Assembly (NCBI RefSeq): GCF_000820845.2
Contig: NZ_CBXV010000008.1
Coordinates: 375,001 to 439,000 of the forward strand
Length of the DNA stretch: 64,000 nucleotides
Direction: 5' to 3'
From: Pyrinomonas methylaliphatogenes
Lineage (GTDB): Bacteria > Acidobacteriota > Blastocatellia > Pyrinomonadales > Pyrinomonadaceae
Shown: positions 15,456 to 31,853 of the stretch, in pieces
How positions within the stretch are numbered: position 1 is the first letter of the stretch
How the letters are laid out: the number at the start of each line of letters is the position of its first letter
Made by a program: the position numbers and the translations under genes
Notes under the pieces: generated by a model
Told to the model about the DNA's origin: nothing
Database searches by the model: none
What the model saw: the letters and a program-made list of their open reading frames with translations, nothing else

Positions 15456-17072
15456 TCACAAAGCGACATAGCGATCATGATCGACCTGCGCAAGGAGTCC
15501 GTCTGCGACGAGTTTGCGCAGATGTGCGAGCACTGAGCGTTCGGCCAGCGCGCGCGCGGCGGCGGGAAGATCCGCATAAACGCGCGCAGCGATCTCCGCT
15601 GGCGATGCCACCCCATCACGCACCGCAGCGAGTATCTCGCGCTCGCGCGCCAAACGATGCGCGATGTAATCACTGATGCGCGCGCGCGCGTTGGCGATGG
15701 CCGGCCCGTGCGCGCTCAACAATACGGTCAACCGCGGCAGAGCGAGCAGCCTCTCGAGCGAGCGCAAATAGTCGCGCATGTCGCCGTCAATCGGATCGAT
15801 GAGCACCGTCCCGACGCCGACGACGAGATCGCCCGTCAACAACGCTCCCAAACGCTCTTCGTAGAAACATAGATGCCCGCGCGCGTGCCCCGGCGTATGA
15901 AGCGCACGTAGGATGAGCGGTGGATCACCGTCGAGTTCGATCGTTTCGCCGTCTTCGATGAAGCGGTCGATCCCGATCCTTCCCTTCAAGGCTTCAGCCG
16001 TCAGCCGATGCGCAGCGACGGGAACGTTGAGGAACTTCCGTAGCGCTTCAACGCCGCCTACGTGGTCCGGATGATGGTGCGTCAAGATGAGCTCGCGCAC
16101 CGCGCAGCCGCGAGCGCGCATCTCGTTCAAGCAATCATGCAACGAACGCTGCTCTTCTTCGTAAGGCGAGGCTGGATCGATGACCACCAGCTCACGCCGC
16201 CCCACGATATAACAGTTCGTGTGTGTGGCGGGCGGTTTGGTCGGCGTGCGCAAAGGGAAGCAGACGATCCCGGGGACGAATTCGATGCGCCGCACGGGAT
16301 GACCATAAGCATGAGGCGTGCTCAAAAATCGCTCCACCAGATCGTCCCCAACGCCCTGCGCCAGCGTTCGAAGAGCATGTAGCACGGGTGGCACCATCAG
16401 CGCTTCACCGCGTTGCCATTTGGCGACGGCTTCTCGGGCCTCGATCCATTCGCCGAAGGATAATTCCCCCTCGGGATTGATGATGCGCGGCTGTTGTTTG
16501 CGTGGACAGCGGACCAAGAAGAACCACGTGTTGAAGCGCCGCGGGCTGAAAGGCGGCGTCACCCAGCGTCCGACGAAAGTGAAATCGCGGGCGTCGAGAT
16601 GCAGCCCGAAATGTTCGAGGAGCTGAGGGAAATCCATGCGCCCGCTCCGCAGTTCATCGAACAGCGATCCGATCTGACCGCGCGTCAAACGATCGCTGCG
16701 GCGCGCAATGAGCACGCCCAGTTCTTCGAAGAGCTCTCGCGCAGCACACGCGATCATGCTCGCCAGATTGCGATCGTCGCAACCGATCACGACCGTATCG
16801 GCATCGGTCGCCTCGCGCTGCCCTCCGGGGAAAGCGTAGAATCCCCCGAGGAAAGAGAGCCGTTCGTTCCGCCTCACCCAAAAGACTTCGACGCGACTTC
16901 CGCGCTCGCGGATCAGGATGACCGCCGCCGCATCTACGGGCAGCGCATCCTTTGCCGAAGCGAGCGCGCGCGCTCGACTGTGAGCTTCACGAGCGTCTTC
17001 GTTTAAGGCGTGTTCCGCTTTCTCGAATTCAGGCAAACGAACTCTCCCGAAAGTCGAGCGCCGCAAAGGCAT
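15456..17072 (-). CDS. Nudix hydrolase / metallo-beta-lactamase-fold hydrolase fusion
   Basis: A two-domain protein of about 538 aa. Residues about 40-230 form a Nudix domain of the NUDT19-like type, with GGFYAFPGG followed by an insertion and the core AARELFEELGV. Residues about 270-530 form a metallo-beta-lactamase fold with the zinc motif THHHPDHVGG, a second His in HTPGHARGH, the Asp in LLTGDLVVG and a final His in LSAHGP, resembling LACTB2-type hydrolases. The last 60 residues form a winged-helix-like tail. The ATG at 17072 was preferred over one at 17198, whose extra 42 residues look non-coding. Substrates could be a CoA or nucleotide ester processed in two steps, but this is inference. 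Confidence 0.87.
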   Translation of the reverse strand: MPLRRSTFGRVRLPEFEKAEHALNEDAREAHSRARALASAKDALPVDAAAVILIRERGSRVEVFWVRRNERLSFLGGFYAFPGGQREATDADTVVIGCDDRNLASMIACAARELFEELGVLIARRSDRLTRGQIGSLFDELRSGRMDFPQLLEHFGLHLDARDFTFVGRWVTPPFSPRRFNTWFFLVRCPRKQQPRIINPEGELSFGEWIEAREAVAKWQRGEALMVPPVLHALRTLAQGVGDDLVERFLSTPHAYGHPVRRIEFVPGIVCFPLRTPTKPPATHTNCYIVGRRELVVIDPASPYEEEQRSLHDCLNEMRARGCAVRELILTHHHPDHVGGVEALRKFLNVPVAAHRLTAEALKGRIGIDRFIEDGETIELDGDPPLILRALHTPGHARGHLCFYEERLGALLTGDLVVGVGTVLIDPIDGDMRDYLRSLERLLALPRLTVLLSAHGPAIANARARISDYIAHRLAREREILAAVRDGVASPAEIAARVYADLPAAARALAERSVLAHLRKLVADGLLAQVDHDRYVAL

Positions 17073-17256
17073 CCCATAAAGCTTGGCGCGAACGTTGAAA
17101 GTATAGCACTCGCCGCAAAGCCGAAGCGAGCAACGCGATGCACGCCACAGGAGACGGCTCGCCCGCGACAACAGGTGGAAAGCGCCAGCCTCGCCCATAA
17201 AAAGGGCGTCACCAGAGGGAATAAAAAAGATTAATGAGATCCATGCAAACTGACTC

Positions 17257-17682: not shown

Positions 17683-18051
17683 ATGCAGATGGAGGGGAAT
17701 AGTCGAGTCAACGGAGAATGGAACGAAGTCGAGATGGAATTCCGAGATCGCATCATCAAATGTATAGATTGCGGAGAGGAGTTCATCTGGACGGCAGGCG
17801 AACAGATCTTCTTCCGTGATAAGGGGCTACAGAACCCGCCGAAACGATGTAAACCATGCAAGCAGGCGAAGAACGAGCGCATCGCCGCGATCATGGCGGC
17901 GCAGGCTGAAGGCGTTCGTCGTCGCGTCGAAGTTCCCGTCGTGTGCGCGCAATGTGGCCAAGCGACCACCGTGCCCTTCTACCCTTGGCAGGGACGCCCC
18001 GTCTACTGCCGCTCCTGTTTCCTCGCACACAAGAGCGCAGAGCAGAGCTGA
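17683..18051 (+). CDS. Small protein with two CxxC zinc-ribbon units
   Basis: A protein of about 122 aa with two zinc-ribbon units. The first has CIDCGEEFIW with a second pair CKPC about 30 residues later, and FFRDKGLQNPPKRCKPC is characteristic of the 'CxxC-x17-CxxC' probable zinc-binding domain. The second has CAQCGQATTVPF and YCRSC near the C-terminus. The ATG at 17683 was chosen because GGGGAAGG precedes it; an ATG at 17644 would lie inside the rpsU terminator. The family is often found near RNA or cold-shock genes, but its function is not established. Confidence 0.8.
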   Translation: MQMEGNSRVNGEWNEVEMEFRDRIIKCIDCGEEFIWTAGEQIFFRDKGLQNPPKRCKPCKQAKNERIAAIMAAQAEGVRRRVEVPVVCAQCGQATTVPFYPWQGRPVYCRSCFLAHKSAEQS

Positions 18052-18210
18052 AGGCTCGACGTTCGCCGCGGCCATAAGGGCGCAAGAGGTTCGCTCGTTC
18101 AGCCGCTAAGCGCCCGCCTCCTCGCGGCGGTCAAGTCCATACTGTCTCGAAGGCCGAAACCGACGTTCGATCCAATCGAGACGCGCGCTCGAATCCCAAT
18201 CGATCCGCTC

Positions 18211-18317
18211 TCGAAAGAGACCTCTTCCACGCCACTTGGCGGTTTGACTTGGATTTGCCTGATCTCAGCCTGATTGCCAACTTCGAAAGAGACCTTTTCC
18301 ACCCCACTTGACGATTT
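18211..18317. repeat. Repeat-spacer-repeat cassette, 35 bp x 2, pitch 72 bp
   Basis: A 35-bp sequence starting TCGAAAGAGACC occurs at 18211-18245 and 18283-18317, with 31 of 35 positions identical, separated by 37 bp of different sequence. The repeat begins with a palindrome around TCTCGAAAGA. It fills most of the 276-bp intergenic space between the zinc-ribbon gene and the convergent kimA gene, where nothing else is visible. Confidence 0.85.
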
Positions 18318-18327
18318 CAGATCGGCA

Positions 18328-20250
18328 TCATCTCTCGAGGTGGTAGGGAACGCTGGTGACGACAACCCCTTTCCTGAATAACAACGCGCCTTTGAGCAGC
18401 AATGAGCTTTGATTGTGAAGCAGATGTTGCCACCAGCGCGCGGGCACGAACTCCGGGATCACGACCGTGACGAAAGCGCCTTCATCCCGCCGTTTAAGCC
18501 GTTCGATATAGCGGAGCAACGGTCGCGTCAGTTCGCGGTAGGGCGACGGAAGGATGACGAGTTTGATGCCTTGCCCCCATCTTTCCCATTTCTCGCGCAA
18601 TTTCCGCGTCGCCTCCTCATCCAAATCGACATAAACAGCCGTCACCTCATCATCCGGCGAGATCGCTTTGGCATATTCGAGCGCATAGACGACGCCGCGA
18701 TGCACGCCCGAGATGGGGACGACGACGCGATGGCGCGGCGTCGGGATCATCTCCATCCCTTCGGTCGAAAGTTGGCGCGCCACATCTTGATAATGATCAT
18801 AAATGGCGCGGAACATCATGACGAGCAGAGGGACGATCACCACGACGAGCCAGGCGCCATGCACGAACTTCGTCACGACGAAGACGCACAGGACGGTGAA
18901 GGTGCAACATGCGCCCAAACCGTTGATCAAGATGGCGCGGCGCCAATGCGAGCTCTTCGCCGATGAGGACTCGCTGCCCCCCTGCGTCGCTTCGCGCTGA
19001 TGCTCGCGTTCGCGCCACCAATGGCGCACCATCCCGGCTTGCGAGAGCGTGAAGGAGAGGAAAACGCCGATCGCGTAGAGCGGGATCAAACGGTGCGTGT
19101 CGCCGCCGAAGGCGATGATGAGCAGGCTGGCGAAGAGCGCTAACAGCACGATGCCGTTCGAATAGACTAATCGATCGCCGCGATTGGCGAGTTGGCGCGG
19201 CAGATAGCGATCCCGCGCCATGATGGAGGCCAAGCGCGGGAAGTCGGCAAACGACGTGTTCGCCGCGAGCACGAGGATCGCCGCGGTGGTCGCCTGCACC
19301 GCATAATAGAACCAGTTCAGCGGGCCGGCGAAGATGGCGCGCGCAAACTGCGAGATCACCGTCTCGTTCGCGTGCGGATGCACACCATACAGATAGGCCA
19401 TCACGCTCGTCCCGAGAAACATCACCGAAAGGAGAAGGGCCATCCAAACGAGGGTCGTCGCGGCATTCCGCGATTCGGGCCGACGAAAAGCCTGCACCCC
19501 ATTTGAGATCGCTTCAATCCCGGTGAGCGCCGAGCAGCCGTTCGAAAAAGCGCTGAGTAGCAGGAAGAAGGTCAACGGCTGTGGCCTGTAACCTTCGGCG
19601 ATCTTCAACTCTCCGGCACCGATCGGCTCGGCGACGCCGAAATAGAAGTAGCGGCACAAGCCGAATCCGATCATGAAAAGGAAGGAACAGATGAAGGCAT
19701 AGGTCGGAACGGAGAAGATCATCCCCGATTCGCGCACGCCGCGCAGATTGGCGATCGCGATGAAAGCGATGAGCAGCAACGAGAGCAGGACCTTGTGCTG
19801 ATCGAGCCAAGCGTAGCGCGTGCCCTGCGCCGCCGATGTGATCGCCGCAACTCCAGCAGATACGGAGACGGCAACCGTTAGGACATAATCGACGAGCAAA
19901 GACGCTCCGGCGACCAACCCGGCGGTGGCCCCGAGGTTATCTTTGGCGACGATATACGCTCCGCCGCCCGAAGGATAGGCGTAGATCGTCTGCCGATAGC
20001 TCGCGCTGACGATGGCGATCAAAGCGACGATGCAAAGCGACAAAGGGATGATGTAACCGAACGCGCGCGCATCGCCGTAAGCGACGGCGACGGCCAACAC
20101 GAGGAGGATCTCTTCGGTGGCATACGCCGTCGAAGAGAGCGCGTCCGAAGAGAAGACGGCGAGCGCCGTCTTCTTCGTCAACCTTTCATGCACGGCTTGC
20201 GCCGTCGGCAACGGAGTGCCGACCAGCAACCGTTTGATGGAAACCGCCAT
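18328..20250 (-). CDS. kimA: KimA-type potassium/proton symporter of the APC superfamily
   Basis: An inner-membrane transporter of about 640 aa with twelve hydrophobic segments and a soluble C-terminal domain. It closely matches the pattern of Bacillus KimA (formerly YdaO): the start MAVSIKRLLVGTPL, then SSDALSSTAYATEEIL, SYRQTIYAYPSGGGAYIV, SNGCSALTGIEAISN, and the last residues VTSVPYHLER. The C-terminal domain (residues about 510-640) resembles a universal-stress fold. KimA imports K+ and is inhibited by c-di-AMP in Bacillus. The ATG at 20250 was chosen to match the family start. The upstream ydaO-type riboswitch and terminator independently support this identity. Confidence 0.92.
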   Translation of the reverse strand: MAVSIKRLLVGTPLPTAQAVHERLTKKTALAVFSSDALSSTAYATEEILLVLAVAVAYGDARAFGYIIPLSLCIVALIAIVSASYRQTIYAYPSGGGAYIVAKDNLGATAGLVAGASLLVDYVLTVAVSVSAGVAAITSAAQGTRYAWLDQHKVLLSLLLIAFIAIANLRGVRESGMIFSVPTYAFICSFLFMIGFGLCRYFYFGVAEPIGAGELKIAEGYRPQPLTFFLLLSAFSNGCSALTGIEAISNGVQAFRRPESRNAATTLVWMALLLSVMFLGTSVMAYLYGVHPHANETVISQFARAIFAGPLNWFYYAVQATTAAILVLAANTSFADFPRLASIMARDRYLPRQLANRGDRLVYSNGIVLLALFASLLIIAFGGDTHRLIPLYAIGVFLSFTLSQAGMVRHWWREREHQREATQGGSESSSAKSSHWRRAILINGLGACCTFTVLCVFVVTKFVHGAWLVVVIVPLLVMMFRAIYDHYQDVARQLSTEGMEMIPTPRHRVVVPISGVHRGVVYALEYAKAISPDDEVTAVYVDLDEEATRKLREKWERWGQGIKLVILPSPYRELTRPLLRYIERLKRRDEGAFVTVVIPEFVPARWWQHLLHNQSSLLLKGALLFRKGVVVTSVPYHLER

Positions 20251-20267
20251 TTCTTCACCCTGAAACC

Positions 20268-20300
20268 GAAAAGGGCACGGAAGCGCGCAGCCTCCGTGCC
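20268..20300 (-). terminator. Intrinsic terminator forming the riboswitch expression platform
   Basis: On the minus strand the GGCACGGA arm (20293-20300 on the plus strand) pairs with TTCCGTGCC (20274-20282), and the hairpin is followed by CTTTT. It lies between the riboswitch aptamer and the kimA start codon, where an OFF-switch terminator is expected. Confidence 0.85.
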
Positions 20301-20335
20301 CCAAAGATCCCCCGCACGGTCCTCTGCCCTTCCAT

Positions 20336-20462
20336 AACGCCTACGAGGTTAGCTGTCGGGCTCGGGCTGGAAGTGCCCTACGCGCCTATGGCGATTCGCC
20401 CCGGTCGATCTGGTTCCCCCGCGCCGCGCACGAACGCGGCTTCGGCCAGCAGGACGCAGATT
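20336..20462 (-). ncRNA. ydaO/yuaA-type cyclic di-AMP riboswitch
   Basis: Read on the minus strand, this leader contains the conserved blocks of the c-di-AMP aptamer in order: CGGGGGAACCA, GGGGCGAATC, TAGGGCA, then GCCCGAGCCCGACAGCTAAC and CTCGTAGGCGT. In this class c-di-AMP binding promotes transcription termination, and a matching terminator sits just downstream. The 5' boundary is approximate because the first arm of the closing stem (near 20455) is not certain. The controlled gene is kimA, the gene after which the element was named in Bacillus. High c-di-AMP would thus reduce K+ importer synthesis. Confidence 0.93.
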
Positions 20463-20474
20463 GTCAAAACCCCA

Positions 20475-20504
20475 ATTTTACGCTCTAACCCTCACGCAGT
20501 GCAA
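20475..20504 (-). promoter_or_regulatory. Candidate promoter of the riboswitch-kimA transcript
   Basis: On the minus strand TTGCAC (plus 20499-20504) and TAAAAT (plus 20475-20480) are separated by 18 bp. Transcription would start near 20467, right before the riboswitch, and immediately after the stop codon of the upstream permease gene. Confidence 0.6.
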
Positions 20505-22463
20505 TCAGCCGCCGACATGAACGACAGGTCGCCGTTCGGGATTCGGTTCCGCTTGCCGCAAGACCTCATGCGTCACCGGCGCCGTGTCGCCTTCGCCGAA
20601 GGCGACGTACTTGAAGAGGTAAGCGAGCGGGTTTCCCTCGCTCCAACCGAAATAGACGTGCGGCACTTTGCCCGTCGTATCGCGCAAGTAGAGGAGGAAA
20701 GCGGCGATCGCGTTCGGGACCGCCGGACTTTCCGTCCGCAAGACCCGGTAACCGTCCACTTTGACGCCCTTGACGCGAAGCACGCCCGAAAATTCCGAGG
20801 CATCGCCGGGCGTCACCTCGAAGAAGATGATCGGATCGCGCGTCGGGATATGGTTATCGGCGCGCTTTTCGCGCTCCTTCTGCGCGTACTCGCGCACGTC
20901 GCCGCGATCGCGTCGATTGGCGACGATTCTGATCTCATTCCGACCACGACTGACCTCTTCGATGAACTGTCGGGCCAGATCATCAAGTTCGACGCGCTCG
21001 ACGCGCAACTCGGTCGTGCGCAAGGCGCGCGACATGAATGAGGTGAAGATGATCGTCACGATGAAGAACGAAGCGATCTTGATCCCTTCGGGACGCTCGA
21101 TGACGTTGACCACCGTCGTGTAGATGAAGACCAGCGTGATGCACAGGAAGGCGATCGTCCTCGCCCGCTCTCGCCGTCGTCGCGATGAGACGAACACGGC
21201 GATGGCCGCCGAAGTCATCAGCACCAGGACGCCCGTCGCATAAGCGCCGCCTTGCGCGTCCACATCGGCCTCGAAGATGATCGTGACGGCGAAGGCGACC
21301 GCCGTGTAGACCAAGACCAGCGGGCGCGTCGCCCGCGCCCAATTGGGCGCCATGCCGTAGCGCGGCAGATAGCGCGGCACGATGTTCAGCAACCCGGCCA
21401 TCGCCGACGCTCCGGCGAACCACAGGATCGCGATCGTGCTGATATCATAGAGCGTGCCGAACGCATCGCCGAAGAAGAGGTGGGCCAGATAAGCGAGCGC
21501 GCGCCCGTTGGCCTTGCCTCCCGTTTCGAACTCCTCAGCGGGGATGAGCAGCGTCGTCGTCAAACTGCTGGCGATCAACATCACGCTCATGATGAGCGCC
21601 GCCGTGCGCAGCAGTTTTCGCGTGTTGCGGATCCGTCCGAGCGGGCGCTCCTCGACATCACCGGGATCCCCTTTGACGAGCGGCATGACGGCGACTCCGG
21701 TCTCAAATCCGGAAAGGCCGAGGGCCAATTTTGGGAAGAGGATGAAGGCTAGGCCCAGCATCAACAGCGGATTGCCATGCGTCTGTGGGTGTGCAAGGAG
21801 CGCGTGACGCCAGCGCGGGAAGACTTCCGGATGCGCGAGGACTTCGTATAACCCGCGCGCCACGACGATCACGTTCACCGCGAGATAGACGCCGACGAGA
21901 AGGACGGCGAGGCCGATCGCCTCTCTAAATCCTTTCAGAAAGATCGCGCCGAGAATGGCGATGAGGGCGAGCGTCAACAGCACGCGGTGCTCTAAGAATT
22001 GCGGAGTGAATGGGTTTTCGAGGATATGGGCCGTCGCATCCGCCGCCGATAGCGTGATGGTGATGATGAAATCGGTCGCGACGAATCCTAACAGGACGAG
22101 GACGAAGAGCTTGCCTTTCCAGCGCGAGAAGAGCCGCTCGAGCATCGCGATCGAGCCTTCGCCATGAGGGCTTTCGGCGGCGACGCGGCTGTAGATCGGC
22201 AAAGCGCCGAAAAGCGTCAACATCACGAGGATCAGCGTCGCGATCGGGGAGAGGACTCCTGCGGCCAAGAAGGCGATGCCCGGTTGATAGCCGAGCGTCG
22301 AAAAGTAGTCCACACCCGTCAAACACATCACCTTCCACCAAGCGTGTGTCGGGTGGGCGCTTCCGCCCTTGTGCGGACCTTCCGTCTCTCTCGTCAGCCC
22401 CTTGAGCAACCAACGTTTGAAGCGCTTCGACGTCGCCTTACGCTGGACCAGAGTTTCGATCAT
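20505..22463 (-). CDS. APC-superfamily permease
   Basis: An inner-membrane protein of 652 aa with about twelve hydrophobic segments. After a 40-residue polar N-terminus, membrane segment 1 contains [15 protein letters not shown], an APC-type signature; segment 6 carries [17 protein letters not shown]. The last ~140 residues are soluble. It is related in layout to KimA but clearly diverged, so K+ or an amino acid may be the substrate; I cannot decide. The ATG at 22463 gives a good start. The gene lies 255 bp upstream of kimA on the same strand, but the riboswitch and a separate promoter indicate that kimA is independently controlled. Confidence 0.85.
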
Positions 22464-28254: not shown

Positions 28255-29109
28255 GTGATACTGCTCTTGTCCTACACGGAGTATCTAGAACGGCTAAGCG
28301 AACCGCGCAGCATCGTGGATGTCGCTTTGGTCTTCGTCATCGTCTACACCGTGCTTCGTTTGGTGCGTGGGACGCGCGCGGCCCCGATGGCTGCGGGACT
28401 GCTCGGTTTTGCGGCCCTCTACTGGCTCGCCATCTGGCAGAGACTCGCGACGCTTGAATTCATTCTGCGCAGCGCGCTTCTGTATGTCGGCGTCGCGGTC
28501 ATCGTCCTTTTCCAGACCGAGATCAGGCAAGCGCTCATCTCCCTTGGGAACCGGTTGCGTCTCCCTTTGTGGCGGAGCCATCGCGGGCAGTTTGGCGAAG
28601 GCGTATACGATGAGATAGTGCTTGCCGCGACGACGCTCGCCTCGACCAAAACGGGGGCCTTGATCGTCATCGAGCGCGGGATAAGTTTGACGAACGCAGC
28701 CGAGAGCGGCATCAGACTTGACGCCGAGCTGAGCTACGATCTTCTCGTGGCGATCTTCAATCCGGCCTCCCCCTTGCACGATGGGGCGGTGATCATTCGC
28801 GAGCATCGCATCGTCGCCGCCTCGTGCTTTTTGCCGTTGACGCTCAATCCGCTTCTGTCGAAAGATTTGGGCACGCGCCATCGCGCGGCCATCGGCATCA
28901 CAGAGGTCACCGATGCCGTCGCCATCGTCGTTTCGGAGGAGACGGGCCTCATTTCGTTCGTCGAACGCGGGCAGATCAAGCGAGGTCTCGATGCCACGCG
29001 GTTGCGGGCCGCGATCGTGCAGGCCTTGCTGGCGCCGCGTCAGAGGCGCAGGGTGGGAAGGCTGGGCGCGGAGACCGAGCGCGAAGCGGAAGAGGCGATC
29101 ACCACTTAA
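28255..29109 (+). CDS. cdaA: Diadenylate cyclase CdaA
   Basis: CdaA makes cyclic di-AMP from two ATP at the membrane. The 284-aa protein has three N-terminal hydrophobic segments (residues about 20-95), a short linker and the DAC domain. The catalytic motifs are intact: DGA at residues 176-178 (in LHDGAVII) and GTRHRAA from residue 206. The C-terminal tail is charged. The start is a GTG at 28255 with AGAGAGAGG upstream. It heads the classic order cdaA, cdaR, glmM, in which CdaR and GlmM modulate its activity. The product should be the ligand of the riboswitch upstream of kimA. Confidence 0.96.
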   Translation: MILLLSYTEYLERLSEPRSIVDVALVFVIVYTVLRLVRGTRAAPMAAGLLGFAALYWLAIWQRLATLEFILRSALLYVGVAVIVLFQTEIRQALISLGNRLRLPLWRSHRGQFGEGVYDEIVLAATTLASTKTGALIVIERGISLTNAAESGIRLDAELSYDLLVAIFNPASPLHDGAVIIREHRIVAASCFLPLTLNPLLSKDLGTRHRAAIGITEVTDAVAIVVSEETGLISFVERGQIKRGLDATRLRAAIVQALLAPRQRRRVGRLGAETEREAEEAITT

Positions 29110-29456: not shown

Positions 29457-30416
29457 ATGAACGGACGCGGATCGAGCTTTCAACCGGTGACTGGATTTTT
29501 GTACGCGATCGGGCGTTGGATGCGCGCCCTGCTTTTCGATGACTGGGCATTGAAGGCGTTGGCGCTGGGCATTTCTTTGGCCTTGTGGTTTGCGGTTGCG
29601 AGCCAACGCACTCCGGCGGCGATCCGTTTGCGCGGCGTGCCGTTAGTCTTCCTGCTTCCCAACGACGTAGAGATCGGCAATACGCCGCGCGACGAAGTCG
29701 AGCTGACGTTGCGCGGCGCGAAGAGCGCGCTCGATTCGCTCAACGTGCGCAATTTGGTGGCGACGGTCGATTTGCGTAACTACGAATTGGGCGAGCGCGT
29801 TCTGATCCTCACGCCTGACCGCATCTCGATGGAACTTCCCGAAGGCGTGCGCATAGAGGATGTCGAGCCCGATCGGATACCGATTCGACTCGAACGGCGC
29901 ATCGTGCGCGAGGTGATGGTCGAGCCGCGTTTCGAAGGGCGTCTCCCTGATGGGTTTGAGATCCGTCGCGTCCAGGTCATGCCGGAATTGATCAAGGTCC
30001 GCGGTCCAGAGAGCCACGTCAACGCGCTTCAGAAGGTGGCGACCGAATCGATCCTGCTCGATGGGCGGCGCAACAGCTTTACAGCGCAGCAAGTTGCGGT
30101 GAACATCCCGGATGCCAAAGTCGTCGCGCTGGAGCCGAGCGTCGCCGTGCAAGTAGAGATCGCGGAGCAGCGCGTAGAAAGGCAGATTTCGAACATCACC
30201 GTCATCAATGATGAGCGCCATGCGCCCGACCATGCGAGCATCGTCGTGCGCGGCCCGCGTTCGGTCGTCGAGAGTTTGCGCGCAGAAGACTTGACCTTGA
30301 AACTCGAGCGAAGCGATGATGGCTCCATCCGTCCGCATCTGGACGGACCGCCGGGGATCGTCGGGCAACTGGAACTCGTCTCCATCACCCCAAAACTCTT
30401 CACGAAGAAGTCTTGA
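29457..30416 (+). CDS. cdaR: YbbR-domain protein CdaR
   Basis: A membrane-anchored extracytoplasmic protein of 319 aa that in Firmicutes regulates CdaA. One hydrophobic segment near the N-terminus (residues about 30-50, containing LALGISLALWFAVASQ) is followed by three or four YbbR-type beta-rich repeats of about 80 residues, each with patterns such as RLRGVPLVF, VEPRFEGRLPDGFEI and VRGPESHVNAL. The tail is polar and ends in KKS. It lies between cdaA and glmM, the conserved order. The spacing to cdaA is unusually large because of the repeat cluster. glmM follows after 33 bp. Confidence 0.9.
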   Translation: MNGRGSSFQPVTGFLYAIGRWMRALLFDDWALKALALGISLALWFAVASQRTPAAIRLRGVPLVFLLPNDVEIGNTPRDEVELTLRGAKSALDSLNVRNLVATVDLRNYELGERVLILTPDRISMELPEGVRIEDVEPDRIPIRLERRIVREVMVEPRFEGRLPDGFEIRRVQVMPELIKVRGPESHVNALQKVATESILLDGRRNSFTAQQVAVNIPDAKVVALEPSVAVQVEIAEQRVERQISNITVINDERHAPDHASIVVRGPRSVVESLRAEDLTLKLERSDDGSIRPHLDGPPGIVGQLELVSITPKLFTKKS

Positions 30417-30449: not shown

Positions 30450-31853
30450 ATGGCGAAACTATTTGGGACTGACGGGATGCGCGGCGAGGCTGGTCGTTTC
30501 CCGCTTGACGTCGAGACCGTGTGCGCGACGGGACGTTCGCTCACACGTCATCTGGCCGAAAGATTGGGGCGCGCGCCGCAGATCATCGTCGGACGCGACA
30601 CGCGCGAATCGGGGGCCTGGATCGCGTCGGCGCTCATCTCAGGCGCGCAGCAAGCCGGCGCTCGATGCTCTTCCGCCGGCGTCATGACGACGCCCGGCGT
30701 CGCCTTCCTCACGCAACATCTTCAGGCCGATGCCGGCGTCGTCATCAGCGCTTCGCACAATCCTTTCAGCGATAACGGGATCAAGATCTTCGCGCCGACG
30801 GGCCAGAAGCTCGACGAGCGGTTGGAGCGATTGATCGAAGAGGACATCTTCGCGGAACGCGCGGCAAGCGAAGTTGAGGATCATTCAGGGGAAGCGCGCC
30901 ATTCGAGCTTCACCGCCGGTCCAGTAGAAACGCCCGCGCGATCCATAGAGGATTCAAATCTGGTCCGCGAGATGCGCGAGCTTTACCTTCAACATCTCGC
31001 GAGCAAAGCCGATGGGCTTCGCCTCGATGGCTTGAAGGTCGTGATCGATTGCGCCAATGGCGCGGCTTCGGAGATCGCGCCCGAGTTCTTCGCGCGGCTC
31101 GGCGCGCGCGTCGCGCCGATTCACAATCGCCCCGACGGACGCAACATCAACCGCGATTGCGGATCGCTCCATCTCGACAGCCTACGGCGTACCGTCCTCG
31201 AACAGGGAGCCGATGTCGGCGTCGCTTTCGATGGCGATGCCGATCGCGCCCTCTTCATCGACGAACGCGGCGAGACGGTGGATGGCGACGCTGTGCTTTG
31301 GATCATGGCGCAGCGCATGCAAGAGCGCGGCGAGCTTTCGGCGAACACGGTAGTCGCCACGGTGATGAGCAACATGGGGCTTGAAGTGGCTTTGCGCGAG
31401 CGCGGGATCAAATTGCTCCGCACGCCTGTGGGCGATAAATACGTTCTCGACGAACTCATCCGAACGGGGGCGACGCTCGGCGGCGAGCAATCGGGCCACA
31501 TCATCTTCCCTCGTTTGAGTCTGGCGGGCGACGGGTTGCTCACGGCGTTGCAAGTCTTCCGTGCGATGCGCGAGGCGGCGAAGGGCCTGAGCGAACTCGC
31601 CGCCGGTTTCGCGCCCTTCCCGCAAGTGCTCGTCAACGTGCGCGTGCGCGAGAAAGCGCCGTTCGATGAAGTGGCGGCGATCAAAGCTTGCGCCGACGAG
31701 ATCGAACGGGCGCTCGACGGTCAAGGCAGGCTTCTGCTCCGTTATTCGGGAACGGAACCGCTCGCCCGCATCATGATCGAGGGGCGCGATCGCCCCATGA
31801 TCGAAGCGCTGGTCTCACAACTAGCCTCAGTCATCGAACGTGAACTCGGCTGA
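30450..31853 (+). CDS. glmM: Phosphoglucosamine mutase GlmM
   Basis: GlmM converts glucosamine-6-phosphate to glucosamine-1-phosphate for UDP-GlcNAc synthesis, feeding peptidoglycan and the nucleotide-sugar genes downstream. All four domains of the alpha-D-phosphohexomutase family are visible in 467 aa. The phosphoserine loop VISASHNPFSDNG has the active Ser at residue 102, the metal-binding loop is FDGDADRAL, the sugar-specificity loop is GGEQSGHI, and the phosphate-binding loop is RYSGTEPLARI. N-terminal KLFGTDGMRGEAG is the usual start. It is the third gene of the c-di-AMP operon; GlmM is known to inhibit CdaA in Gram-positives. Confidence 0.97.
   Translation: MAKLFGTDGMRGEAGRFPLDVETVCATGRSLTRHLAERLGRAPQIIVGRDTRESGAWIASALISGAQQAGARCSSAGVMTTPGVAFLTQHLQADAGVVISASHNPFSDNGIKIFAPTGQKLDERLERLIEEDIFAERAASEVEDHSGEARHSSFTAGPVETPARSIEDSNLVREMRELYLQHLASKADGLRLDGLKVVIDCANGAASEIAPEFFARLGARVAPIHNRPDGRNINRDCGSLHLDSLRRTVLEQGADVGVAFDGDADRALFIDERGETVDGDAVLWIMAQRMQERGELSANTVVATVMSNMGLEVALRERGIKLLRTPVGDKYVLDELIRTGATLGGEQSGHIIFPRLSLAGDGLLTALQVFRAMREAAKGLSELAAGFAPFPQVLVNVRVREKAPFDEVAAIKACADEIERALDGQGRLLLRYSGTEPLARIMIEGRDRPMIEALVSQLASVIERELG

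Follow-up and report, generated by a model that had tools for sequence, protein, structure and literature searches.

A predicted c-di-AMP riboswitch in front of the potassium transporter gene kimA of Pyrinomonas methylaliphatogenes

We analyzed a 64,000-nucleotide stretch of Pyrinomonas methylaliphatogenes DNA (the window; contig NZ_CBXV010000008.1, positions 375,001 to 439,000), whose minus strand carries a ydaO/yuaA-class c-di-AMP riboswitch. It very probably acts on kimA as an OFF switch at the level of transcription. The element is well formed and ordinary: its riboswitch class is known, kimA is the best-known target of that class, and c-di-AMP control of kimA at the RNA level is a strong prediction from its sequence. 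In the proposed mechanism, RNA polymerase would start just behind the gene of the upstream transporter, here called APC-X, and transcribe the aptamer. At plentiful c-di-AMP, which corresponds to sufficient potassium, ligand binding would keep the P1 helix of the aptamer in place, the hairpin at 20302-20272 would form, and transcription would end ahead of kimA. At low c-di-AMP, the unbound RNA would pair in another way, bypass the terminator, and allow KimA to be made. B. subtilis uses switches of this class to repress kimA and ktrAB when c-di-AMP is high (PMC5573677), and one class member has been shown to terminate transcription upon c-di-AMP (PMC9337991). The features of the locus, in window coordinates, are:

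20505–22463, minus strand: APC-X, an uncharacterised KimA-fold transporter of 652 aa, predicted K+ importer (model closest to KimA; shared K+-site residues; riboswitch-linked in relatives)
20475–20504, minus strand: putative sigma-70-type promoter, -35 TTGCAC at 20504-20499, 18-nt spacer, -10 TAAAAT at 20480-20475 (sequence and layout conserved in relatives)
20323–20457, minus strand: c-di-AMP (ydaO/yuaA) riboswitch aptamer (80.2 bits against a gathering score of 38, full length)
20294–20319, minus strand: candidate antiterminator helix, CCGUGC (20319-20314) with GCACGG (20299-20294, the left arm of the terminator), six G-C rich pairs
20272–20302, minus strand: intrinsic terminator hairpin GGGGCACGGA-GGCTGCGCGC-TTCCGTGCCCT followed by UUUUCGG (hairpin scan; -25.8 kcal/mol)
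18328–20250, minus strand: kimA, K+/H+ symporter of 640 aa (ATG at 20250 with AGGG 7 nt upstream; match to KimA in the PDB)

The aptamer assignment comes from the covariance model RF00379 (c-di-AMP, ydaO/yuaA leader), which matches the minus strand at 20457-20323 with E 4.8e-17 and spans the full model (1-134). The initial annotation had read a c-di-AMP riboswitch here from its conserved blocks, and both blocks it quoted are present: CCCGACAGCTAAC at 20360-20348 and CTCGTAGGCGT at 20347-20337. The aptamer is compact (135 nt) and G+C-rich, its conserved core is intact in the RF00379 match, and it is the single copy in the whole genome (3.79 Mb, 99.5% complete). The outermost pair of P1 is a non-standard G-G. 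The leader as a whole has an ordinary folding energy (z -0.15), and the case for a riboswitch comes from the covariance model and from comparison and does not draw on stability. By its sequence, the aptamer at 20457-20323 would bind c-di-AMP.

The expression platform behind the aptamer is a hairpin of 13 pairs. It was earlier called a textbook terminator; the hairpin bears this out, and the adjective is slightly generous because the U-tract is only UUUUCGGUUU, with four consecutive U. Comparison across 25 transporter-linked copies (the window copy and those of relatives) places a strong terminator 8-32 nt past the aptamer in 16, against 0.05 expected in shuffled sequence. The stems vary in sequence and keep their pairing, as in GCACGGA/TCCGTGC, GCGCGGA/TCCGCGC, and CCACAAA/TTTGTGG. 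Regulation of translation instead of termination would fit a few relatives (L030, L031) that have no terminator and leave little room before the start codon. This reading is nonetheless quite improbable for the window, where the 3' end of the hairpin lies 21 nt 5' of the kimA ATG and leaves the AGGG Shine-Dalgarno sequence free, and the terminator is present in most relatives. A degenerate or non-functional relic, to which the non-standard closing pair of P1 and the short U-tract might point, is hardly credible given a full-length match at twice the cut-off with a conserved core, and a terminator, promoter, and target gene that are all intact.

How the preferred transcriptional switch would avoid termination is less clearly written in the sequence. 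The candidate antiterminator CCGUGC/GCACGG is unproven, since a fraction of 0.15 of shuffles gave an equal or better helix. A search for shared complementarity across 26 copies showed no consistent excess over shuffles, and in minimum-energy and prefix folding the terminator always won, with the aptamer held or free, so that the two states were not separated. Because no convincing antiterminator emerged, we infer ligand-induced termination at 20302-20272 from the riboswitch class, and the OFF direction and the antiterminator are likewise proposed rather than observed.

The putative promoter lies directly past the stop codon of the upstream gene and fits sigma-70 weakly. A strict consensus scan returned nothing in the kimA leader, though the promoter proposed in the initial annotation gains credit from comparison: among 46 copies, 35 have a TANNWT -10 at the right distance (10.4 expected from shuffles), and 22 of the 46 combine a -10 with a TTG -35 (1.15 expected). 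The -10 of the window is about 6 nt farther from the aptamer than in most relatives. We also considered TTGACA at 20467-20462 as a -35 and rejected it; it sits 3' of the conserved -10, it aligns with the conserved leader start, and no -10 fits within the aptamer. The switch could alternatively be an operon-internal attenuator with no promoter of its own, acting on transcripts that read through from APC-X. The stop codon of APC-X is only 47 nt from the aptamer, and the order transporter, switch, transporter is conserved; roughly half of the copies linked to a transporter have an APC-X gene directly before the switch. Against this stand the conservation of the -35/-10 layout in that very 47-nt gap and four loci (L022, L028, L164, L166) that have switch and kimA but no adjoining APC-X gene. 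We therefore hold the attenuator to be an unlikely, though not negligible, alternative to a separate transcription unit; judging from the conserved sequence, kimA probably has its own promoter. The APC-X gene itself is not controlled by the window riboswitch because it ends 47 nt before the aptamer.

The downstream gene is kimA, as initially annotated. Its start lies 73 nt past the RF00379 match, and a PDB sequence search with the frame from 20241, which begins at codon 4, matched the B. subtilis KimA structure 6s3k over query residues 1-636 (E 6.2e-153). The structure paper names the residues for potassium and proton binding and reports D36 and Y43 of TM1 as essential (PMC6994465). In our KimA alignment of 26 relatives, the K+-site residues (B. 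subtilis D36, Y43, T121, S125, T230, E233, and Y377) are invariant. The window protein also keeps the Arg and the His-Asn-Gln of the c-di-AMP pocket of KimA (PMC10284832); in the same alignment, the pocket His and Asn are invariant, and the pocket Arg and Gln nearly so. Since this pocket is conserved, the KimA protein, too, is probably inhibited by c-di-AMP. The closest relatives of the window KimA come from Pyrinomonadaceae, Blastocatellia, and other Acidobacteria MAGs, in keeping with the acidobacterial host suspected from the DNA.

The enzyme that would make the ligand, the diadenylate cyclase CdaA, is encoded nearby. The cdaA-cdaR-glmM operon, in classical order, lies 8 kb from the riboswitch:

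28255–29109, plus strand: cdaA, diadenylate cyclase (PF02457 DAC, 1.7e-41)
29457–30416, plus strand: cdaR, YbbR-domain regulator of CdaA (PF07949, 1.6e-18)
30450–31853, plus strand: glmM, phosphoglucosamine mutase, third gene of the operon (PF02878/79/80/00408)

A phosphodiesterase-type protein of the PgpH 7TM-HD kind is encoded elsewhere in the genome. Besides CdaA there is a second DAC-domain protein of 215 aa (G000:C8:211253-211621, L003).

The switch is common in the class and confined to a minority of the phylum, as RF00379 was found in 33 of 60 relatives and, across the phylum, in 53 of the 297 genomes sampled. Among 56 copies from the window genome and relatives, 12 precede kimA, 12 a member of the APC-X family, and one kup, and the remainder stand before other genes or none. 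The proposal that the riboswitch identifies kimA independently of protein similarity thus fails; with 12 of 56 copies before kimA, it is the protein that identifies the gene. Seen from the transporter, kimA directly follows the switch in 12 of the 20 relatives that encode KimA and does not in eight, and no missed riboswitch was found before the switch-less kimA at five loci, even at E 0.1. We found no paper describing ydaO switches in Acidobacteria in the literature open without subscription.

The sister genome G001 (L254) shows switch and kimA as one module. Relative to window 18045-20504, promoter, switch, and kimA are absent there as one block and both neighbours are kept: the APC-X gene (80% DNA identity) is followed by ~350 bp and then by the counterpart of window 18045-17321. 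Further along the window, the minus strand at 15456-17198 encodes a 580-aa protein in which a NUDIX domain is fused to a metallo-beta-lactamase with its winged helix.

Other arrangements were noted among the relatives. Tandem APC-X copies with a c-di-AMP riboswitch between them occur at G021:C38, G008:C67, G007:C16, G026:C14, and G006:C39 (L031, L160, L026, L163, L005), and at G036:C20 (L021) the second copy is replaced by a kup-like gene. Two unexpected targets, named by the look of their sequences only, are an apparent ABC transporter substrate-binding lipoprotein (L012, L019, L032, L149) and an apparent FAD/NAD(P)-binding protein (L013, L152, L156). Ten riboswitches have no evident sense-strand gene behind them (L144, L146, L147, L148, L150, L155, L158, L024, L014, L143); none is in the window genome. 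They share a conserved stretch of 70-95 nt and a terminator. The next gene is mostly convergent and ends ~15 nt past the terminator, which by its A-stem-T form looks bidirectional. These ten may be stand-alone c-di-AMP-binding small RNAs.

The upstream transporter, APC-X, has no sequence match in Pfam, NCBIfam, or the PDB. Pfam K_trans (PF02705) is absent from the matches of APC-X and its 45 aligned relatives, three of which match AA_permease_2. The AlphaFold model (pLDDT 86) has KimA as its best solved structure by two programs, and the match takes in the C-terminal domain as well as the membrane part: Foldseek gave E 1.5e-14, and the second program Z 41.6 over 514 residues at rmsd 13.8. Amino acid transporters come next, matching in the membrane part only (Z 36). 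Given the high rmsd, the two domains probably sit in a different arrangement relative to each other in the model than in KimA. A profile comparison with KimA gave 97.5% and E 7e-12, at an identity of about 15%. Five residues, D52, Y59, T135, S139, and Y408, are present in 23 of 23 aligned APC-X sequences, common to KimA, and nearly always found in Kup. D52 and Y59 of TM1 correspond to KimA D36 and Y43, which also occur in Kup, and T135 and S139 (TM3) and Y408 (TM10) match remaining K+-site positions of KimA. In TM6, the invariant S251-G-F-E254 resembles the T-G-I-E of KimA, which holds the TM6 Thr and the proton-coupling Glu (B. subtilis T230 and E233), with the alignments putting the two motifs 10 residues apart. 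APC-X thus resembles KimA (KUP family, PDB 6S3K and 8B70, to which the window kimA product belongs) in its predicted fold, including the C-terminal domain, and in the K+-site Asp, Tyr, Thr, Ser, and TM10 Tyr; it differs in its low identity, in going unrecognised by K_trans, and in lacking the pocket His and Gln. Plasmid-borne relatives occur in Deinococcus, Thermus, Streptomyces, and others, and Deinococcus members are annotated as amino acid transporter, APC family permease, or hypothetical protein.

The distribution of importers was compared across 40 genomes of relatives. The APC-X family is present in 34, and in 11, ten of which are at least 90% complete, it occurs without TrkH, KdpA, Kup, or KimA; in two genomes (G043, G047) none of the five was found. 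The window genome has KimA, APC-X, and KdpA, and no TrkH or Kup. APC-X is thus found in 11 of the 13 genomes without the other four, and Trk or Kup in four of the six without APC-X. This complementarity with Trk, Kdp, Kup, and KimA is suggestive, not significant, because APC-X is in so many of the genomes. Taking the riboswitch link, the residues, and the genome pattern as the basis, we lean toward APC-X being a second K+ importer, distantly related to KimA. With similar, somewhat better than even, confidence we see in the family a branch of KUP-like K+/H+ symporters that is widespread and has no name, that in Blastocatellia is a target of the switch as often as kimA, and that provides several genomes with their only identifiable K+ importer. 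In the open literature, subscription papers aside, we found no description of the family in this role. In the window genome, APC-X would then be the constitutive importer and KimA its inducible, c-di-AMP-repressed partner, a pair that can be likened to KtrCD versus KimA/KtrAB of B. subtilis.

The B. subtilis switches of ydaO (kimA) and yuaA (ktrAB) resemble the present one in aptamer family, in the kimA target, and in the terminator after the aptamer. Here, in contrast, the host is a soil-type acidobacterium, and the aptamer is G+C-rich, compact, and set between two transporter genes. In Bacillus thuringiensis, a riboswitch before kdpFABC likewise places K+ uptake under c-di-AMP control (PMC6488665), with a transporter class and a phylum other than those described here.

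The locus would extend to Acidobacteriota the c-di-AMP control of potassium uptake that was worked out in Firmicutes. It brings a complete parts list together in one place: the cyclase operon, the riboswitch, and a KimA with a conserved c-di-AMP pocket. The neighbourhood also points to a transporter family that has neither a name nor a Pfam model and is probably a potassium importer in many bacteria.
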